This document shows positions 6,246-19,634 of a DNA stretch of 64,000 nt, in pieces. The notes under the pieces were generated by a model. It was not told the origin of the DNA, searched no databases, and saw only the letters and a list, made by a program, of their open reading frames with translations. Origin of the DNA: Nitrospinota bacterium (GTDB taxonomy: Bacteria > Nitrospinota_A > UBA7883 > JACRLM01). The number at the start of each line of letters is the position of its first letter. The stretch's first letter is position 1. The stretch spans positions 2,139,941-2,203,940 of the forward strand of contig JACQXA010000004.1 of the NCBI GenBank assembly GCA_016208975.1, in the 5' to 3' direction. The translations under genes were made by a program, and so were the position numbers.

Positions 6246-6385
6246 GTTCCCGTCACGCTTTTGCCGTTCCGGCGTTACGGCCGGATATCTATCCGCGTGT
6301 CCGGGTTTTCCGGGCGGTTGAATCCAATTAACAATCCGGCGCCGGGGTATTTATACCCATTGGCGCATAACTTGAGGTTTGGGCA

Positions 6386-7306
6386 GTGAAACTGTTATCC
6401 ACTTTTAAAGCCATGGCGCGCATGCTGGCGGCGCCCGCCCTGTTCCTTTTCTCCATTGTGGCGTTGAGCGCCTGTGGCTCTTCCTCCGGTACGCCCGGTT
6501 ACGATGTGGAGCTTGTTCCAGGTTCCATGGCCACGGGCAAAAGCTCGTTCCAGCTTAAGGTGACCAGGAAAAGCGACGGCTCCCCGGCCACCGGCCTGGC
6601 CGGGAACATAGAGCTTGCGCCTTTGATGAACATGGGGACATTCGTCCATTCCACCGCTATTCCCGCGGACGCGGTTTCGGAGTCATCCACCCCGGGCACT
6701 TACGACTGTACGCTCTTTTTCGTGATGGGTGGCGACTGGACCGTGGACGTGACCATAGGATCCGAGACCACCACCCACGCGATGACGGTTGGAATGGGCA
6801 TGGGGTCGGACACTTCGGTGGTCAGGATGAAGAACGCCAGCGACATGTATATGTCCATGGACGGCGCCATGGGCATGAGGAACTACTATCTGTTCACCGA
6901 TAGCCTCGTGCCCGGGGAAACCCACGGTAGCGCGCTCACCGTGTTCGTGGCCACCCTGCAAGAGGGGCTGATGAGTTTCCCGCCGCTTACCGCCGGGCTT
7001 CAGCTTATGGGTATGGATGGATCTGTCCAGAAGACCATAGACAACTTCACGCTTGAAATCTCCGGCGACGGAGTGGAGTGGGACGCCATGACCTGTGACG
7101 GGAATTCCCGGTGCGAGGGGCATCTCCATCACGCATACGCCGCCGGTGAGCAAGGCACGGCCTATCTGCGGTTGACGGTGAACGGCGATGTTTACACCAC
7201 CGACGGCGCGGCGGCCAACAACTCCGCCGATCCGGCCAGCAACAACGCCAACGCGGTTTTTACGGTCACCATGGGCGGCAGTGACATGTCCAGTGGCGGC
7301 ATGTAA
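6386..7306 (+). CDS. Met-rich lipoprotein with a FixH/YtkA-like domain
   Basis: A 306-residue lipoprotein with lipobox LSAC (Cys30). Residues about 40-140 look like an immunoglobulin-like YtkA/FixH domain (a KVTRKSDGSPATGL segment, then TPGTYDCTLFFVMGGDWTVDV). The region after it is notably methionine-rich (MGMGMGSD, DMYMSMDGAMGM), which suits binding of Cu(I). The second half (about 150-300) contains CDGNSRCEGHLHH and a domain I do not recognise. The stop overlaps the start of the next gene (TAATG). Its probable role is periplasmic metal binding or delivery; this is inference from composition and neighbours. Confidence 0.6.
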   Translation: MKLLSTFKAMARMLAAPALFLFSIVALSACGSSSGTPGYDVELVPGSMATGKSSFQLKVTRKSDGSPATGLAGNIELAPLMNMGTFVHSTAIPADAVSESSTPGTYDCTLFFVMGGDWTVDVTIGSETTTHAMTVGMGMGSDTSVVRMKNASDMYMSMDGAMGMRNYYLFTDSLVPGETHGSALTVFVATLQEGLMSFPPLTAGLQLMGMDGSVQKTIDNFTLEISGDGVEWDAMTCDGNSRCEGHLHHAYAAGEQGTAYLRLTVNGDVYTTDGAAANNSADPASNNANAVFTVTMGGSDMSSGGM

Positions 7307-8292
7307 TGCGCTCTTTTAGCCATTCTTTCCTCATCTCCCTTTGCGCGGCGGCCCTTTTCCTCGGGGCCGCCGCCCCTATGGACGCATGGGCCGCGTCATG
7401 TTGCGGGGGCGGTTCCGCATCGTCGCTTGTCATGCCCAAATTCTCCCAGGGGATGCTGGACGTTTCGCTGGACATGGAAAAATACGACGGTTACTGGAAC
7501 GCCGACGGAAAATACCTGCCAGACCCTCCCGGCTCCAGCCTGAACCAATACCGGTTGAACCTGGCCGGAGCAAAACGCCTTGCTCCCCGGTGGCAGGCTT
7601 ATATTTCGCTACCGCTGGTGTGGAACGACAACCGGTATTCCGCCGTGAAGTCGGACACCCGGGGGGTAGGGGACGTTTCCTTGGGCTTCTGGTACGAGGC
7701 GTTCGACAACATCATGTGCGTGTGGAAAGTGCGGGAAATAGCGGATATGAAGCCCGCCGTTTACCTGGGCGCCTCCCTTACGGCGCCTACTGGCGCATCG
7801 GCATACGATGATGTGAAAAGCAGTTTCGACGTGACCGGGCGGGGCTTTTACAGGCTGGACGCCAACCTCCTGCTGGAAAAGACCATCTTTCCGTGGAGCG
7901 TGTCGTTCCAGTATTCATACGGGGTTCATCTGGAACGCCCCATCAACCGGGAGTATGGCGAGTATGTCAATCCATATCATAAAAAACTGGGGGACAGGAG
8001 GCTGTGGTCGGTCTCCGGCGGATACACCCATTTCATGGAGAGCATGAACTCCCTGAGCGCGGGCCTTTCGTACTCGGACCTGCTGGAGTCCGGCGGAACC
8101 ATAGACGGTATGGGCGACCCGACATCGGGGATGAAAAAGCGCTCTGTGGCGGGCACATTGGCTCTGGCCAGCGACGACCGGGACTGGGTGTTGAAATTCA
8201 GTTTAAGCCACACATTCAAGCAAGACGGTTTCGGGGCCAACTTTCCCGCCACGGACATCTATACCATAGGGGTAAGCCATGTATTACGCTAG
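7306..8292 (+). CDS. Outer-membrane beta-barrel protein
   Basis: A 328-residue protein with a signal peptide (hydrophobic SLCAAALFLGAAAP, cleavage near AWAA) and a mature N-terminus beginning SCCGGG. The rest shows alternating hydrophobic/aromatic strands (WQAYISLPLVWN, GVGDVSLGFWYE, FPWSVSFQYSYGVHL) and ends in GVSHVLR, typical of a barrel of the PF13557-like (phenol-degradation meta-pathway) porin group. It overlaps the preceding lipoprotein gene by one base and the following thioredoxin-like gene by 14, so the three are surely co-transcribed. Substrate unknown; the CC motif may bind metal. Confidence 0.65.
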   Translation: MRSFSHSFLISLCAAALFLGAAAPMDAWAASCCGGGSASSLVMPKFSQGMLDVSLDMEKYDGYWNADGKYLPDPPGSSLNQYRLNLAGAKRLAPRWQAYISLPLVWNDNRYSAVKSDTRGVGDVSLGFWYEAFDNIMCVWKVREIADMKPAVYLGASLTAPTGASAYDDVKSSFDVTGRGFYRLDANLLLEKTIFPWSVSFQYSYGVHLERPINREYGEYVNPYHKKLGDRRLWSVSGGYTHFMESMNSLSAGLSYSDLLESGGTIDGMGDPTSGMKKRSVAGTLALASDDRDWVLKFSLSHTFKQDGFGANFPATDIYTIGVSHVLR

Positions 8293-11940: not shown

Positions 11941-11972
11941 AGCGACGTTATCCCGGCAAGGCGTTTAAACGG

Positions 11973-12001
11973 CCCTCCGCTGTAAAGGCGGAGGGTTTTT
12001 T
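11973..12001 (+). terminator. Rho-independent terminator after the chemoreceptor gene
   Basis: CCCTCCGC (11973-11980) and GCGGAGGG (11988-11995) form a perfect 8-bp stem with a 7-base loop, followed by six T. It separates the chemotaxis pair from the downstream peptide operon. Confidence 0.9.
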
Positions 12002-12099
12002 ATGACCGTGGCGTGACCTTTCCCGGCCTCCCGCTTACCTTGCAGGCCGTTCTTGTCAATATTCCCCCCTGGTAAGCATCCAGCGGCCGTAAAAATAGT

Positions 12100-12132
12100 T
12101 TGCAAGGAGCGTGAAATTATTATACTAATAAT
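12100..12132 (+). promoter_or_regulatory. Candidate promoter with overlapping palindromic operator
   Basis: TTGCAA at 12100-12105 and TATACT at 12121-12126 (15-base spacing) precede the 62-residue peptide gene. ATTATTA-TAC-TAATAAT at 12116-12132 is a perfect 7-bp inverted repeat over the -10 box, as expected for a repressor site. The DNA is far more AT-rich than its surroundings. Confidence 0.4.
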
Positions 12133-12166
12133 CAAAGTATATTTTCATATTACAGGAGGCGGGCTC

Positions 12167-12355
12167 ATGGTTGACGGAGGCGGGAAGCTGAGCGGCGCGG
12201 CTAAAAGCATGCTTAATGAAAGAAAGAAGCTGTTGACCGCGTTGAACAAAAAGAGCAAGGAAACGCTGGATCTTCAGATGAAGCTTACGGAGCTTCATGG
12301 GGAGCTGGTCAAGGAGGGGGTTTACCTTGATACGAACGCAATCATGTGCTGGTGA
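12167..12355 (+). CDS. 62-residue helical peptide, candidate precursor or partner of the downstream enzymes
   Basis: Starts at the ATG of MVDGGGKLSG, placed by a perfect AGGAGG seven bases upstream; the frame is open further up but without a site. Residues about 12-48 form a charged amphipathic helix (ERKKLLTALNKKSKE, DLQMKLTELHGEL), then the chain ends in a different, non-helical tail, GVYLDTNAIMCW. A helical leader-like part plus a short C-terminal tail with Tyr, Asp, Cys and a terminal Trp is the layout of many ribosomally made, modified peptides. It is the first gene of an operon with radical SAM and sulfotransferase enzymes, 20 bases before the next gene. It could instead be a small helper protein. 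Confidence 0.55.
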   Translation: MVDGGGKLSGAAKSMLNERKKLLTALNKKSKETLDLQMKLTELHGELVKEGVYLDTNAIMCW

Positions 12356-12375
12356 ACTAAAAGGTCTAAAGGGGC

Positions 12376-14214
12376 ATGCCTTGGGGCCGCGTTCCATACG
12401 CGTTTACCGGTGATGACGTTTTCCTGGTGGACAGCCGGGGTGGGCCGGTGTGGCCCCTCCGGTCTGAAACCGAGCTTATTGCCCTTCAAGCGCTGGCGCG
12501 TATCTTCGGCGGGGAGCTTTTTGAGACCCATGGGGTTGCCGGGCCGCCGGCCGCAGGGAGGGAAACCGTCGCAGTCTATGGGGAGGTGGATGAATACTCC
12601 GCCCGTCTTTACGCGCATCTCACAGGCCGCAGGTTTTTGAGGGCGGAGGCTTTGCGGGACATATCACAAGCCCCAGGCCTGTCGGTATTGATTACTGACG
12701 GCGGATCTCTTACGGGGAAAACCCTTCAGGCCATAAATAATAACCCAGTCTCACGGTTCCAGGTTCCCGGCGTAATCTGCGGTTATCACCCGGACCAGTT
12801 CCGGCTTCTTGCCATTTTAAAGACCGCTTCCGCGCGCTTTGTTACCGCCGGTTATGGGGATGTGGTGGAGATAGCGCCAGAACTGCCCTTTGCCGGCGCC
12901 GAGACTGAAGGGATTTCGCGGTTTGGCGGAAAGGCCAAAGTGGGCATGTTGAGGAACGCCTTGGGAAAAGGGAGCGATCAGGTTTTGATCCACTCCCATT
13001 CGGACGGAGTGGATGTTTCCCTGGGCCCGGGTGGTGTTTTGTGCCCTGTGACGGCCAAGATGAAGCCCACCGGTGCATTAACGCCGGATTGCATGGAAAC
13101 AAAAAACTGTTTCAGGCTGGAGACGCCCATCATCCGGGCGCAACGGAACAAGGTTTTGATACGGCCAGAGGAGGTGAGGTGCCGGGTACTCACACTCAGC
13201 GCCTGCTCGGCCCTTTTGCCGCCGGATTGGCATGTGGATCAGCGTATGGGGATAGCGCCAAGACTGCATGTTTCGCCATTCGTAGGCGCGATGATAATAA
13301 CCTGCGGGCTTTCACACACAAGCTTGCGGTTTATGGAGAAACTGGCCGGATTAATCGGGCAGGGGGTTCCTGTGGGGAAAGCATTGGCGAAGTTCCGGAA
13401 GATGGACATGATGAACGGAGGTGGCCGGAACCTCTATTTGATGGGGGATCCCCGCGTGGCGATACCCCCGGCCGGGCGCCGGGCTAAAACGCCTGTGGCT
13501 AAAATACCGGGCGGCAGAAGAAAAAGAGTGTTAATTGGGCGCGCAGGGGCGCAGGGGAGGCTGGCTTTTTTAAGGCTTACGCTGATGTCTGTGATAAGCG
13601 GGGGGAAAAAATCTTCCATAGCTGGAGAGGCGCAGGAGGCGCTGAACGCGCTTCTTGCGATGGAATATGCCCTGTCGCAGAATTGCCCACCCAAAGCCGT
13701 AAACTTTTGCGCGCTCCAGTCCAGGGTTATAAGACTTCTTCTTCAAACCCTCAGGTTTTACGATGATTGGCATAAGTTTTCGGAGCCGGTTGGAGAGTCC
13801 TTGCCGCATGGCGTTTGCCCGCGGTGCGGCGGCCTGGCCGAAATGCCCCGGCTCAAGCTCCGGATAGAGGGGGCGCCCAGCCGCCGCAAAACCCTATGCG
13901 CATATTGTGGCGTGCTGGAGGACACCTCGGCGGACTCAACCTTTTACCTTGACGCCACCCCGGAAGGCCGTTTGAAACTTATGGGGGAAAAGCCCACGGC
14001 GCCATGCGAGGGGGGCGCGCTGGCCCATGAAGTGGGCACGGGGGGAAAGCTGTATTTCCCGTGGCCGAAAACCGGCGCTGGAAAACTTGCCGCATATATG
14101 GATACCGGCAAAAGGTTCAGACCGGGCAGGTATTGTTTCCACTTCATGGCGATGTATGGGCTGGACATACATTACTCCATGCTTTTCTACCGCCCGGCGG
14201 CCAGCAAACGCTGA
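12376..14214 (+). CDS. Caspase-fold-like (clan CD / CHAT-like) protein with zinc ribbon
   Basis: A 612-residue cytoplasmic protein that I do not recognise as a whole. Residues about 200-365 have the marks of a clan CD cysteine peptidase of the CHAT or C25 kind: a strand ending in His (LIHSHSDG, H206/H208), a second strand ending in Cys (VLTLSACSAL, C277), and NLYLMGDPRV at 352-361, like the GDP motif that closes such domains. A zinc ribbon follows (C481xxC484 and C508xxC511), then about 100 residues of beta-rich sequence. The N-terminal 190 residues match nothing I know. It may process the 62-residue peptide encoded just upstream. It overlaps the sulfotransferase start by one base. Confidence 0.55.
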   Translation: MPWGRVPYAFTGDDVFLVDSRGGPVWPLRSETELIALQALARIFGGELFETHGVAGPPAAGRETVAVYGEVDEYSARLYAHLTGRRFLRAEALRDISQAPGLSVLITDGGSLTGKTLQAINNNPVSRFQVPGVICGYHPDQFRLLAILKTASARFVTAGYGDVVEIAPELPFAGAETEGISRFGGKAKVGMLRNALGKGSDQVLIHSHSDGVDVSLGPGGVLCPVTAKMKPTGALTPDCMETKNCFRLETPIIRAQRNKVLIRPEEVRCRVLTLSACSALLPPDWHVDQRMGIAPRLHVSPFVGAMIITCGLSHTSLRFMEKLAGLIGQGVPVGKALAKFRKMDMMNGGGRNLYLMGDPRVAIPPAGRRAKTPVAKIPGGRRKRVLIGRAGAQGRLAFLRLTLMSVISGGKKSSIAGEAQEALNALLAMEYALSQNCPPKAVNFCALQSRVIRLLLQTLRFYDDWHKFSEPVGESLPHGVCPRCGGLAEMPRLKLRIEGAPSRRKTLCAYCGVLEDTSADSTFYLDATPEGRLKLMGEKPTAPCEGGALAHEVGTGGKLYFPWPKTGAGKLAAYMDTGKRFRPGRYCFHFMAMYGLDIHYSMLFYRPAASKR

Positions 14215-15047
14215 TGGCGCGCGGCAAAAAGGGCGAAGCCGGGGAAAGGGTGAAAGAGCGGCCCGTTTTCATCTTCGCTTCCGGCCAGCGTACTGGAAGC
14301 ACTTTGTTACAGCGACTGTTGAACACTCACCGGGACATACATATTTGGGGTGAGCATTCCGGGGGGCTTGAACCAGGGCTGGCGCGAAATTTACGCATGG
14401 CGCGGCAGGGATTAGAGATAGCCGCCACCCGGGACGGCGGCGCGGAACAGTTCGAAAGTTACCGGAAAAACCGGGCCGACCAGTGGATGGCGGCCATGAC
14501 CCCGCCCGGGCCGTGGGATGACGTGTTCCGCGATGTTTTTATAGATCTTTACGCCGGCGCGGCCAGGGATATTTTCGGAAAACGCCGGTGGGGTTTCAAG
14601 GAAACCCTGTATGACGCCGCGGACGCGCGGTTTCTTGCAGGCCTGTTTCCATCGTGCCGGATAATATTCCTGTTCCGTGATGTCCAAGAAACATACCGCT
14701 CCATGCGCCGGAACAGCGCCATATCACCTTTTTTTTCCATAGACACATTCGTGGGCCAATGGGTCCGCATAGTCACCTCATTTCTTGAAAACGCAGGAGA
14801 CAAGCCGAACGTGACGATGGCGCCTTTCTCGCAACTTATAAAAGACCCTCGCGAGGCGATGGAGATGGTGGCCGGGTTTCTTGAGGTGGACGCTGATGGA
14901 TTTGACATGGGCATTATTAAAAACGTGATTCCCGGGGCGCCGGAAATTAACTGCCCTGCGCCTAACGAAGAGGAGCTGGAGTTTATCGAGCGGGTGGCTG
15001 GTGAGACCCGGCGGGAGCTGAAGAAGCGTTTCGGAACGGCTGGATAA
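14214..15047 (+). CDS. PAPS-dependent sulfotransferase family protein
   Basis: A 277-residue protein starting at the ATG that overlaps the preceding TGA (TGATG); the longer open frame upstream lies inside the previous gene. Near the N-terminus it has the 5-prime-phosphosulfate loop FIFASGQRTGSTLLQRLLN (about 19-37) and, near 152-163, the 3-prime-phosphate site FLFRDVQETYRSM, both typical of the Sulfotransfer_3 type. No membrane segment. Known members transfer sulfate from PAPS to sugars, lipids or peptide tyrosines. With a peptide gene in the operon that has a Tyr (GVYLD) beside acidic residues, tyrosine sulfation is a reasonable but unproven guess. Confidence 0.8.
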   Translation: MARGKKGEAGERVKERPVFIFASGQRTGSTLLQRLLNTHRDIHIWGEHSGGLEPGLARNLRMARQGLEIAATRDGGAEQFESYRKNRADQWMAAMTPPGPWDDVFRDVFIDLYAGAARDIFGKRRWGFKETLYDAADARFLAGLFPSCRIIFLFRDVQETYRSMRRNSAISPFFSIDTFVGQWVRIVTSFLENAGDKPNVTMAPFSQLIKDPREAMEMVAGFLEVDADGFDMGIIKNVIPGAPEINCPAPNEEELEFIERVAGETRRELKKRFGTAG

Positions 15048-15076
15048 AGAATTGTTGAATTAATTCGGGGGGGGCG

Positions 15077-15976
15077 ATGGCTCTTAAATATTTCGGGTGG
15101 GAGATAACCCACGCATGCAACTTAAGATGCCTGCATTGCGTCAATAAAACCGGCGCCCGAAGGAAGAACGAGCTTACGTGGGACGAGATGCTTTCCATGA
15201 TAGGCAAGATAAGGGAAGCGGGCGTTACAACGGTGTTCTTTTCAGACGGGGAGCCGCTAATGTCGCCGCTGTTCATGCCGCTGGCGCGGAGGCTGAGGCA
15301 AGAGGGGTTCGGGCTGGCGCTGGTTACCAACGGCACGCTGATGACTTGGGAGATGGCGCGGGAGATAGCCGAGTTAAAGTTCGATGTGGTTGGTATAAGC
15401 CTTGACGGGCCGGAGCCGGTTCACAACCATGTGCGCGGGCCGGCGGCGTTCGGGAAGGCGGCACAGGCGGCGCGATGGCTGAAAGAAGGGGGTATAAGGC
15501 TTAGCGTTACTACATGCGTGAACAACGTTACGGTGGACACCCTGCCGGAATTCGCCGGGATGGTGAATGACCTGGGCGCCGATGAGTGGCAGTTGCTCAC
15601 TTTGGTAAAAAGCGGCGATTTATCCGGGGATGTTGTTTATTTCGACAAGGTTGTGGCTGACAAGATGGACAGTTTCGTGATGAGGGTCAAAAACGGGAAC
15701 GGCTACGGTTTCAATCTGCGGGTGATGAACTGCCTGGACCAGTTGCCGGTGAGCGTGGGGGAAAATCCGTTCAACAACCGGTGCGAGGCGGGAACGACTT
15801 TTCTTTGCATGGCCGCCGACGGTCTGGTGAAACCATGTTTCGCCCAGCCGGACGATTATTTCCTGGGGGACATGAGGGTTGAGTCGCTTGCGGACATATA
15901 TGGAAGGCTTGCCGATCCGGCGCATCCTTACTGGAGCCGGAAATATTGCAAGGGTTTTTGCAACACCATAATTTGA
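15077..15976 (+). CDS. Radical SAM protein with SPASM/twitch-type C-terminus
   Basis: A 299-residue radical SAM enzyme. The [4Fe-4S]-SAM motif is CNLRCLHC (C14, C18, C21), followed by SDGEP (the GGEP-like SAM contact) and VVGISLDGP. The C-terminal 80 residues carry further cysteines, NRCEAGTTFLCMAADGLVKPC and KYCKGFC, which suit an auxiliary cluster of the SPASM or twitch kind. Such enzymes often modify ribosomal peptides by thioether or carbon-carbon links, or mature cofactors. It starts 29 bases after the sulfotransferase with GGGGGGG upstream. No separate RiPP recognition domain is visible, so leader binding would have to come from elsewhere. Confidence 0.8.
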   Translation: MALKYFGWEITHACNLRCLHCVNKTGARRKNELTWDEMLSMIGKIREAGVTTVFFSDGEPLMSPLFMPLARRLRQEGFGLALVTNGTLMTWEMAREIAELKFDVVGISLDGPEPVHNHVRGPAAFGKAAQAARWLKEGGIRLSVTTCVNNVTVDTLPEFAGMVNDLGADEWQLLTLVKSGDLSGDVVYFDKVVADKMDSFVMRVKNGNGYGFNLRVMNCLDQLPVSVGENPFNNRCEAGTTFLCMAADGLVKPCFAQPDDYFLGDMRVESLADIYGRLADPAHPYWSRKYCKGFCNTII

Positions 15977-15982
15977 CACCCA

Positions 15983-17017
15983 ATGAGCCATGTCAAGTTC
16001 CGCCCGCTGGGCGCCACGGGGTTGAAGGTCTCCATCCCCTGTTTTGGCGGCCTGCACCTGGCCACAAAGCTTGGCCCGCGTGAGGCTGAAAAGCTGGTCC
16101 GTTACGCCGTGGAGCGGGGCATAAACCTGTTCGACACCTCCCGCGCCTATATGGACAGCGAGGAAAAAATAGGCCGCGGGCTGGAAAATATCAGGGGCGA
16201 TATCCTGTACTGCACCAAGAGCATGCGGCGCGACGGGACGATCGTGGAAGAACTGGATGCGTCGCTGATGGCGTTGAGGACCGGTTATGTGGACATTTAC
16301 ATGTTTCACAGCGTGGACCGGGAGGAGGATTACAGGAGCGTTATCCGGCGGGCCCTGCCAGCCGTGGAACGCGCAAGGCAGGCGGGCAAGATAGGGCTAT
16401 TGGGCCTGTCCACCCACTCCCGGCGGATTCTGGAACTTTCAGCGCGGGAGGGGGTTTTCGATTGCCTGCAATTCCCCTTTAACCATGCGCACCGCGCCGG
16501 GCTTGCCGATGGGCTTGGAGATGAGATAGCCGGAAAAGGCATTGGCATATTGGCCATGAAACCCTTTGCCGGAGGGGTTTTGAACGATCCGGAGCTGGCC
16601 GTAAGTTTCATTGCGCAATACCCATGGGCCGTTCCCCTGGTAGGTTTTGAGAAAAAAGGGGAGATAGACCAGATAATAAGCCTGTTCGAAAATCCGCCCC
16701 CTTTCGATGAAAGGATGCGCGCCAGGGCCGACGCGGCAGTGGCCCGGACCGGGAGCGGATTTTGTTGCGGGTGCGAGTATTGCCAGCCCTGTCCCCAGGG
16801 CATTTCCGTGGCGGCTATCATGTATTACCCCGTGATAGAGCGGCAATATGGGCGGGAGAAGATGGACGCGGTGACGCTCCAGCGCCACTTTGAGCGGTTT
16901 GAAAACGATTGCGACCAGTGCCGCCAGTGCGAAAGCAAATGCCCATTCAGCCTGCCCATACTGGAAATGGCGCCCAGGCATCACCGGCGTTTTGTGAAAC
17001 TGATGAATGGCGGTTGA
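15983..17017 (+). CDS. Aldo/keto reductase fused to ferredoxin-type 4Fe-4S domain
   Basis: A 344-residue protein. Residues 1-240 are an aldo/keto reductase TIM barrel with the catalytic tetrad in place: D51 and Y56 (NLFDTSRAYMDSEEKIG), K79 (CTKS) and H109 (MFHSVD). Residues 260-325 hold two cysteine clusters, FCCGCEYCQPCP and CDQCRQCESKCP, of ferredoxin type. Proteins of this architecture are common next to radical SAM genes and may pass electrons between NAD(P)H and iron-sulfur clusters. Here it directly follows the radical SAM gene (6-base gap) and is the last gene of the operon, 8 bases from the convergent hybrid kinase. Confidence 0.88.
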   Translation: MSHVKFRPLGATGLKVSIPCFGGLHLATKLGPREAEKLVRYAVERGINLFDTSRAYMDSEEKIGRGLENIRGDILYCTKSMRRDGTIVEELDASLMALRTGYVDIYMFHSVDREEDYRSVIRRALPAVERARQAGKIGLLGLSTHSRRILELSAREGVFDCLQFPFNHAHRAGLADGLGDEIAGKGIGILAMKPFAGGVLNDPELAVSFIAQYPWAVPLVGFEKKGEIDQIISLFENPPPFDERMRARADAAVARTGSGFCCGCEYCQPCPQGISVAAIMYYPVIERQYGREKMDAVTLQRHFERFENDCDQCRQCESKCPFSLPILEMAPRHHRRFVKLMNGG

Positions 17018-17025
17018 GGCGCGGC

Positions 17026-19449
17026 CTAGTAGATGAACCTGCGGACGCGGGGAATGAAATCGGCGGGCTCCATGAGTTTTGAGATGAAATCGTTGGCGCC
17101 CAGCCGGAAGGCTTTCTCACGGGTTTCCATGTTGGAGTCGGACGTGACCACGATTACCGGGACGTTCTTGGTTTTGGGGGCGCCGCGCAGGCGCGTAAGC
17201 AGGTCGAACCCGCCCATCACCGGCATGAAGATGTCCATTATCACCAGGTCCGGGATAACGCTATCCATCATGTCCAGAGCCTCCTCGCCGTCGCCGGCCT
17301 CCTCGATTACCGCGTCTATCTTTTCCAGGTAGCGGCGGTAAACGGCGCGGACTATTTTCTCGTCCTCCACCAGCAGGATAAGCGGCTTTTTCACCGGGAG
17401 CGACGCTATAAACACGCTTCCCTTCCCTTTTTCCGACTCCACCGCTATGGAGCCGCCGTGGGCTTTCATGATGTCGTCGCAGTATGGAAGGCCAAGGCCG
17501 GTGCCTTTTTCGCCAGCGGTGCCAAGGGTGGAGGTCTTTATTTCATGACGGAACAGGTCGGGCGCGATCTCCGGGTTTATCCCTATGCCATTGTCCCTCA
17601 CCGCCACAGATCCCGGCTTACCCTTGGGCTGGAAAAGCTCGACAACGGATCCGGCGGGCGAAAACTTTATGGCGTTGGCGATGAGGTTTAGAAGCACCTG
17701 CGAGAAAAGCTCCGGGTCGGCGTAAATCCGCGAGCCGGGGGCCACGTTGTTGCGGATATTGATGGTTTTCTCCTCGGCCACGTATTTCATCGCCGACATG
17801 GCCGATTCAGCCAGGATGTGGGCGTCCTGGAATCTAGGCTGGGGGGTAATGGCGCCGGTCTTCAAACGGCTTATGTCCAGCAGTTCGTTGATCATCTGTA
17901 TGATCCGCTCGCCGCTCTTGCCTATGTGCCACAGCATCTCCCGGTGTTTTACCATAAGGTTCTGGCCCGCCTCGCGGTTGATGAGGTTTAGCAGGCCCAC
18001 CATGGAGGTGAGGGGCGACTTCAGGTCGTGCGCCACAAGCGACACGAACTTGTCTTTCAACCGGGTGGCTTCCTCCGCCGTTTCCTTGGCCTTTATAAGC
18101 TCTTCCTCCGAGGCTTTCCGCTGGTTGATGTCAATCATCGCGCCGCGCAATGACACGGGCTTGCCCTCCACGCGGGTGACGGTGACGATGTCCCGGAACC
18201 AGACGGGCTGGCCGTTGGAGTTCATGAAACGGTACTCCAGGTCGTGGTCGAGCCCCTTGCCGGCGGCGGTCATGGAATATTCCACGGCGCGGGCCCTGTC
18301 GTCCGGATGGATATGGTTTTTCCAGAAATCCAGCTCGCTCCATTTTTTTATGGGATAGCCCAGGATCTCCACGGCCTGGTTGCTGACGAAGGTGAACTGC
18401 CTGGATTGAGGATCCGCCTCCCAGGAGATAAGGCGCACTCCTTCCACCAGGAGCTTGTAGCGTTCCTGGCTTTTTAACAGCGCCTCCTGGGCCACGGCCC
18501 GTTCCCTGGCCTCAAGCTTCAGCCTCTGGTTGGCGCTCATAAGTTCCGAAGTGCGGCTGGTTACGCGGGTTTCCATCTCAGCCTGGGCGTTGGCCAGTTC
18601 CATTTCCGCTTCCTTCAGCTGGGTGATGTCCACCGCGAAGGCAATGACCCCTTTTATGATGCCCTCCCTGTCTTTGTAGGGGACCTTGTCTATCTTCACC
18701 CACCGGGAGCGCCCCTCTTTGCGGATGGTGGTGATGATGTTAGTCTTCGGCTGGCCGGTTATCATCACCTCCAGGTCGTCCAGGCGGAACCTCTCGGCGT
18801 CTTCCGGCGGGAAAATATCGAAGGATGTTTTTTGTAACACCTGGGCCCGGCCGGCGCCGATGAAATCCAGGAACGCCTTGTTGGCGCGCACTATCCGGTT
18901 TTCCCTGTCCTTGAATATCACCATGGCGGGGATGGCGTTGAGTATTGTCTCCAGCTGTTCTTCCTGCGCCTGCCACAATTCCTCGGCGGCGCGTTTGGCG
19001 GCCAGGGCCGTATTTCGTTCGGTAATGTCCCTGGCGATGGAAATAACTGTTTGCTTTCCATCCATGTCAAAAATATGGGAGCTTACCTCAACGGGTATTT
19101 TGCGGCCGCTTTTCGCCTTGTGGATCCATTCGATCCTGAGGGACTTTTTCTCCATGAATTCGGCCATTACCGTTTTCAGGTTTACGGTTGGCGAGTCCAT
19201 CCCGGAGATGTCCGCCACGGTCAGGCCCATAAACTCGCCGCGGCTGTATTCAAGCCTGTGGACGGCCACGTCGTTTACGTCTATGAATGGGCCGGGGGAA
19301 CCGTCTTCTAAAAGGTGATAGACGAAGATGGCGTCGTTGACGCTGTTGAACAGGAGGCGGTACCAGTCATCGCCCGCCAAAGCTTCCTTTGGTGGCTCTT
19401 GCCCGGCGCCTTTGAAAGCCGGTTTGGATATCTGGTCCAGTCCGTTCAT
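17026..19449 (-). CDS. Hybrid sensor histidine kinase, PAS-PAS-PAS-HisKA-HATPase-REC
   Basis: About 807 residues when started at the ATG at 19449; a TTG at 19497 would add 16. Three PAS domains (about 30-140, 170-290, 335-450), a dimerisation domain with H-box VAHDLKSPL near residue 475, an ATPase domain with N-box LLNLIANAIKF near 590 and DNGIGI, and a C-terminal receiver with phospho-acceptor Asp in LVIMDIFMPVMGG near 738. There is no membrane segment, so the sensor is cytoplasmic and likely senses redox state or a small ligand. No response regulator is adjacent, so its output is unknown. It faces the peptide operon tail to tail. Confidence 0.9.
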   Translation of the reverse strand: MNGLDQISKPAFKGAGQEPPKEALAGDDWYRLLFNSVNDAIFVYHLLEDGSPGPFIDVNDVAVHRLEYSRGEFMGLTVADISGMDSPTVNLKTVMAEFMEKKSLRIEWIHKAKSGRKIPVEVSSHIFDMDGKQTVISIARDITERNTALAAKRAAEELWQAQEEQLETILNAIPAMVIFKDRENRIVRANKAFLDFIGAGRAQVLQKTSFDIFPPEDAERFRLDDLEVMITGQPKTNIITTIRKEGRSRWVKIDKVPYKDREGIIKGVIAFAVDITQLKEAEMELANAQAEMETRVTSRTSELMSANQRLKLEARERAVAQEALLKSQERYKLLVEGVRLISWEADPQSRQFTFVSNQAVEILGYPIKKWSELDFWKNHIHPDDRARAVEYSMTAAGKGLDHDLEYRFMNSNGQPVWFRDIVTVTRVEGKPVSLRGAMIDINQRKASEEELIKAKETAEEATRLKDKFVSLVAHDLKSPLTSMVGLLNLINREAGQNLMVKHREMLWHIGKSGERIIQMINELLDISRLKTGAITPQPRFQDAHILAESAMSAMKYVAEEKTINIRNNVAPGSRIYADPELFSQVLLNLIANAIKFSPAGSVVELFQPKGKPGSVAVRDNGIGINPEIAPDLFRHEIKTSTLGTAGEKGTGLGLPYCDDIMKAHGGSIAVESEKGKGSVFIASLPVKKPLILLVEDEKIVRAVYRRYLEKIDAVIEEAGDGEEALDMMDSVIPDLVIMDIFMPVMGGFDLLTRLRGAPKTKNVPVIVVTSDSNMETREKAFRLGANDFISKLMEPADFIPRVRRFIY

Positions 19450-19634
19450 TAAAAGCCGCTTACCCCAGAGTTTGCCCTGTAAATTTGGATGCGACAATGG
19501 AAAACCGCTTCCTTAATTATAGTCCAATTTCCGTAGTTTTACCGGGGCTGGCGCATGTATGTTTTGACGGATGGGAGGTTGGGGGTTTTTACAATATAAT
19601 TGGTGGTGTATTAAACAGGAAAGCCGGGAGGAAA

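Follow-up and report, generated by a model that had tools for sequence, protein, structure and literature searches.

A five-gene operon of a Nitrospinota bacterium that may direct the modification of a small peptide

In the RaxX/RaxST system, a small bacterial protein is sulfated on tyrosine; this system has neither a radical SAM enzyme nor an aldo/keto reductase (AKR) and uses a dedicated exporter-protease. The GDL/DUF1843 cassettes (TIGR03913) carry repeated genes for peptides of ~55-65 aa directly upstream of a radical SAM gene, with no annotated sulfotransferase or AKR alongside. In the mycofactocin scheme (mftABCDEF), a precursor is combined with a radical SAM enzyme, a peptidase, an oxidoreductase and a decorating transferase (PMC7491314). 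Methanobactin operons produce a RiPP with a peptide-directed sulfotransferase, MbnS, which is of the PF00685 type and targets Thr; the maturases are MbnB/C, and no radical SAM step is described (PMC3621798).

We analyzed a window of 64,000 nucleotides from a Nitrospinota bacterium (assembly GCA_016208975.1, contig JACQXA010000004.1, positions 2,139,941 to 2,203,940), which contains a compact operon that can be compared with each of these systems. Like the mycofactocin cluster, it offers a small precursor-type gene in first position, a SPASM-class radical SAM enzyme, a candidate for the peptidase role, an oxidoreductase and a decorating transferase; unlike that cluster, it lacks an MftB/PqqD-type chaperone and a glycosyltransferase, and has a sulfotransferase instead. 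Gly-Val-Tyr, with which the mycofactocin precursor MftA ends, also occurs in the peptide of the operon, though internally, and a match of three residues is weak evidence. The GDL family supplies the best profile for the radical SAM enzyme and has small peptides upstream, but the peptide encoded here does not belong to DUF1843 and has no GDL motif, its gene is not repeated, and the radical SAM enzyme scores far below the family cut-off. The step that we propose for the sulfotransferase is the one known from RaxX/RaxST, and the methanobactin pathway differs in its maturases, target residue and sulfotransferase type. We favor the reading, with a probability of just under one half (about 0.47), that the operon came in by horizontal transfer and serves to make a peptide-derived product, along the lines of mycofactocin/PQQ or another RiPP. 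The operon and its boundaries are organized as follows:

11971-11997, + strand: left boundary, an intrinsic terminator that closes the chemoreceptor gene upstream
12099-12126, + strand: promoter-like site TTTGCA-16-TATACT from a consensus scan, possible operon promoter
12167-12355, + strand: gene of the 62-aa putative precursor peptide, first in the operon
12376-14214, + strand: protein 2, a 612-aa orphan with a possible CHAT/clan CD-like domain
14214-15047, + strand: sulfotransferase (Pfam Sulfotransfer_3, E=1e-16)
15077-15976, + strand: radical SAM enzyme with a half-size SPASM ("twitch") C-terminus (Pfam Radical_SAM, E=6e-28)
15983-17017, + strand: AKR with Fe-S motifs (Pfam Aldo_ket_red, E=1e-25)
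17026-19497, - strand: convergent PAS/HisKA/HATPase/REC sensor kinase, outside the operon (right boundary)

The five genes occupy positions 12167-17017 of the + strand with spacings of 20, -1, 29 and 6 bases, the stop and start of genes 2 and 3 overlapping by 1 base. The recomputed coordinates reproduce the gaps given by an earlier reading made from the DNA alone (hereafter the sequence-only reading), and the two boundaries that it had described, a terminator at 11973 and a convergent kinase at 17026, correspond to a hairpin of 11 pairs followed by a T-run and to the PAS/HisKA/response-regulator kinase, respectively. Its start at 12116 lies upstream of the first gene; the promoter-like site is found there, but with a site count not above that of shuffled sequences it occurs at chance frequency and is a lead only. 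No riboswitch or other RNA was found in the leader. In codon usage, genes 2 and 3 depart slightly from the local norm but are not strikingly foreign. Farther upstream, before cheW, two adjoining + strand ORFs of >300 aa (window 6371-7303 and 7285-8289) show coding-like GC3 and have no Pfam match.

As far as the sequence tells, the ORF of 62 aa is a genuine gene. An AGGAGG Shine-Dalgarno sequence lies 7 bases before its ATG, GC content by codon position follows the coding pattern, and its codon log-odds of 0.372 bits/codon exceed the maximum of 0.268 reached by 83 ATG ORFs of >=55 aa taken from wrong frames of neighboring genes. AF2 run on the single sequence predicts a helix at residues 10-28, a turn and a second helix at residues 34-49 (mean pLDDT 74), in line with the helical body that the sequence-only reading had attributed to a 62-residue peptide, and gives low confidence beyond residue 50. 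The tail, EGVYLDTNAIMCW, carries the sole Tyr (Tyr53, 12323-12325), the sole Cys (Cys61) and the sole Trp (Trp62) of the peptide, and Tyr53 is preceded by Glu at -3 and followed by Asp at +2. The peptide matched no family in Pfam, NCBIfam, PHROGs or PADLOC, and no homologue was detected in 23 other genomes of the phylum or, above chance level, by tblastn against plasmids. As no homologue was found, there are no conserved core residues to set beside the tail residues that the sequence-only reading had proposed to compare. The tblastn matches on Rhizobium plasmids all have E >=0.3; the best of them, in CB3171, is read in the same frame as HtpG (heat-shock protein 90) and was therefore judged a chance match, although one such match has a radical SAM gene at a distance of 4 kb. 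Membership in DUF1843/GDL or Nif11 was also rejected, the peptide having no Pfam match, no GDL motif and no Nif11 signature.

Three of the other genes encode members of recognizable enzyme families. Besides its Sulfotransfer_3 match, the sulfotransferase has a PAPS-site FIFASGQRTGSTL, a TPST-like GE motif and a second PAPS-site FLFRDVQETYRSM; its nearest PDB sequences are protein-tyrosine sulfotransferases, a weak similarity (E=0.01) in which both PAPS segments are aligned. The AKR matches Fer4 models in addition to Aldo_ket_red, finds oxidoreductases in the PDB, and combines intact tetrad motifs (DTSRAY, TK, FH) with a C-terminal pair of Cys-rich 4Fe-4S (ferredoxin-like) motifs. The radical SAM enzyme, in which the SPASM match is sub-threshold, displays C14-x3-C18-x2-C21, C236-x12-G-x4-C254 and C291-x3-C295, which corresponds to the SPASM/twitch pattern of CxxxCxxC, C-terminal Cx9-15Gx4C and a downstream Cys. 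The sequence-only reading had named the same three families, with a SPASM-type radical SAM enzyme and an Fe-S AKR, and these assignments hold.

The subfamily of the radical SAM enzyme is less sharply defined. Its top NCBIfam profiles are the maturases of GDL-peptides (TIGR03913) and nif11-peptides (TIGR04103), both at about one fifth of their cut-offs; the score against TIGR03913 is 116 bits for a cut-off of 592, and that against the mycofactocin maturase MftC (TIGR03962) is 93.5 bits for a cut-off of 265. In a tree it sits on a long branch whose placement is not resolved, and the nearest rows by path are again GDL- and nif11-peptide maturases. The closest solved sequence is that of cytosylglucuronate decarboxylase.

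Protein 2 has no match in Pfam, NCBIfam, PADLOC, PHROGs or the PDB, and no clan CD family is significant. It appears to combine a putative CHAT/clan CD-like domain (approximately residues 130-365) with a helical region and a zinc-ribbon-like motif of four Cys. The single homologue detected, 24% identical over residues 131-598 (tblastn E=7e-16), is a 548-aa ORF (L041:9758-11404) on a 691-kb Rhodococcus opacus plasmid (NZ_CP095404.2) that is absent from the PLSDB gene table. The homology covers both the putative CHAT-like core and the zinc-ribbon-like motif, and Cys223, Cys239, Cys245 and Cys277 are invariant between the two proteins. Alignments place the residues of interest as follows:

12997-12999, + strand: His208, would-be catalytic His, Gly in the Rhodococcus homologue
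13204-13206, + strand: Cys277 in LTLSACSALL, would-be catalytic Cys, kept in the Rhodococcus homologue
13816-13908, + strand: zinc-ribbon-like motif C481-x2-C484 ... C508-x2-C511, conserved in Rhodococcus

With CHAT and clan CD proteins protein 2 shares a motif order (strand-His208, strand-LTLSAC277, helix, GDP near the end), from which it departs by its extra conserved cysteines and zinc-ribbon-like motif and by the absence of the His in its homologue; protein 2 has both residues of the putative His-Cys dyad, and the homologue (n=1) only the Cys. Global hhalign against CHAT proteins of the same phylum matched His208 and Cys277 to the dyad of CHAT at a non-significant P=0.02, and comparison with shuffled alignments gave z from -1.1 to 2.3, likewise not significant. 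Single-sequence AlphaFold produced no usable model (pLDDT 34). The caspase-like identity put forward by the sequence-only reading was thus not borne out; it is a lead, not a result, which the motif order alone suggests, and the four conserved cysteines allow Cys277 to be a metal ligand instead. A weak profile match to protein 2 (L045) proved to be an ABC-transporter ATPase by its ORFs, two others in other phyla are similarly weak and short, and no relative of protein 2 was found in viral contigs.

Orthologues of the five operon genes were found in none of 23 other genomes of the phylum (E limit of 1e-30 for the AKR), where the radical SAM enzyme has generic matches only (~28-40% identity). Because all five genes are absent from these relatives, their distribution fits acquisition as one functional unit, and we infer that the operon was acquired horizontally. 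Protein 2 has no convincing relative in sampled Actinomycetota (397) and Pseudomonadota (399), and the radical SAM enzyme no close relative in two phylum-level samples, one around G026 (347 genomes) and one around G027 (349); scans by pattern across 84,980 species returned no relative of protein 2 and only remote matches to the radical SAM enzyme (<=34% identity), these samples and scans being loose ones from which diverged copies can escape. A second copy of the gene set was found neither in 24 genomes of the phylum, nor in the sampled other phyla, nor in the scans of 84,980 species. In Rhodococcus, the surroundings of the protein 2 homologue consist of NRPS fragments, and within 10 kb none of the other four genes has a counterpart. 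The recurrence of the five genes together in other genomes, which the sequence-only reading had offered as a check, was therefore not encountered.

Modification of a peptide is the best reading of this locus, as a real small gene is packed with a SPASM/twitch radical SAM enzyme whose best profiles are peptide maturases and with a TPST-like sulfotransferase; that the operon truly modifies a peptide we regard as roughly an even bet. In its favor, the operon is tight, confined to one strand and clearly bounded, with the peptide gene in first position, and the arrangement expected of a RiPP operon, a coding small gene beside modifying enzymes, is seen in the coding potential, the Shine-Dalgarno sequence and the spacing. 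It is further favored by the GDL and nif11 maturases nearest to the radical SAM enzyme, which follow small precursor-type genes in other bacteria, by the protein-tyrosine sulfotransferases as closest solved sequences of the sulfotransferase, by the shared absence of the five genes from the rest of the phylum, and by the partial precedents of mycofactocin and of methanobactin MbnS. Counted against it are the features of the only relative of protein 2, found beside NRPS fragments, away from the other four genes and devoid of the would-be catalytic His. The searches described above also gave neither a homologue of the peptide nor another genome with the gene set, and the peptide has no GDL/DUF1843 or Nif11 signature. 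In addition, no RRE/PqqD-type peptide-binding domain was recognized in the operon proteins with Pfam and NCBIfam, and the operon contains no exporter.

Beyond the gene structure, the coding status and the families of three enzymes, which the sequence establishes, we infer a scheme in which the 62-aa peptide would be the substrate, its helical body serving for recognition and the tail of 13 residues as the core. In the tail, the twitch-type radical SAM enzyme would introduce a carbon-centered change (a cross-link, an oxidation or a decarboxylation), the sulfotransferase would sulfate the peptide, most likely at Tyr53, protein 2 would bind the peptide and might cleave it via Cys277/His208, and the Fe-S AKR would reduce a carbonyl made on the product. 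The sequence-only reading had proposed modification, sulfation and cleavage of the peptide; its core, peptide modification, stands as the best reading, and caspase-type cleavage is unproven, the His being lost in the homologue. It had been able to match the gene set to no named pathway, and we likewise found none with this combination. By title and abstract, no RiPP pathway with both a radical SAM enzyme and a sulfotransferase was recognized in the open literature, and no paper there has both "CHAT domain" and "radical SAM", absences that are weak evidence. If the peptide is indeed the substrate, radical SAM chemistry and tyrosine sulfation would meet on one bacterial peptide, and protein 2, with its zinc-ribbon-like motif, would represent a new family of proteins that process peptides. 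It is unlikely that the operon defines a new RiPP class that unites a twitch radical SAM change in the tail, sulfation of a single Tyr, a new zinc-ribbon CHAT-like protease and an Fe-S AKR; its product could then be a sulfated redox cofactor or signal. With its five genes in 4.9 kb, the operon is self-contained and hence directly testable in a laboratory host.

The hairpin predicted over residues 10-49 would also suit a helical accessory subunit or chaperone, a helix-turn-helix coiled coil, with the enzymes building or decorating a small molecule or lipid rather than a peptide. Fe-S AKRs often act on small molecules, as do many Sulfotransfer_3 members. The closest solved relative of the radical SAM enzyme, the decarboxylase mentioned above, points in the same direction, and so do the twitch enzymes with reviewed chemistry, BtrN and MoaA, whose substrates are small molecules and not peptides (PMC9012708). 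On the other hand, the low-confidence tail past residue 50, with the only Tyr, Cys and Trp, is unlike a helical helper, and the best family profiles of the radical SAM enzyme are those of peptide maturases. We consider such a helper role rather unlikely, but it is the main rival reading.

It is quite improbable that the five genes form a fortuitous or loosely linked recent cluster with separate roles (for instance redox metabolism for the radical SAM enzyme and AKR, and an unrelated sulfation) and no shared product. Every enzyme family involved is large and generic, co-conservation was not seen, and the sole relative of protein 2 stands apart from the other four genes, but the very tight spacing, the 1-base overlap, the common and unique distribution in the phylum, the uniform strand and the clear boundaries all argue for a functional unit. 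CHAT proteases occur in defence systems, and the radical SAM enzyme matches PADLOC pVip models (E=8e-22), which speaks for a defence-type operon with a viperin-like enzyme and a CHAT-like protease. Against the NCBIfam viperin profile (NF038283), however, it scores 68 bits for a cut-off of 180, with many other radical SAM families scoring higher, and it has an auxiliary-cluster domain that typical viperins lack. No other operon gene matches PADLOC and the CHAT fold of protein 2 is unproven, which makes a defence role very improbable.

In Azospirillum, Aureibacter and Nostoc, maturases of the GDL and nif11 types lie directly behind small precursor-type genes. One locus on an Aureibacter tunicatorum plasmid (L056:5144-7914) encodes three DUF1843 peptides, followed by a radical SAM enzyme whose score falls slightly short of the GDL-family cut-off and by a class I methyltransferase, and is possibly a variant GDL cassette in Bacteroidota. 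An Indioceanicola profundi plasmid (NZ_CP030128.1, L061:1189-5044) carries TIR and SIR2 genes next to a cassette of one PqqD-type gene and three radical SAM genes.
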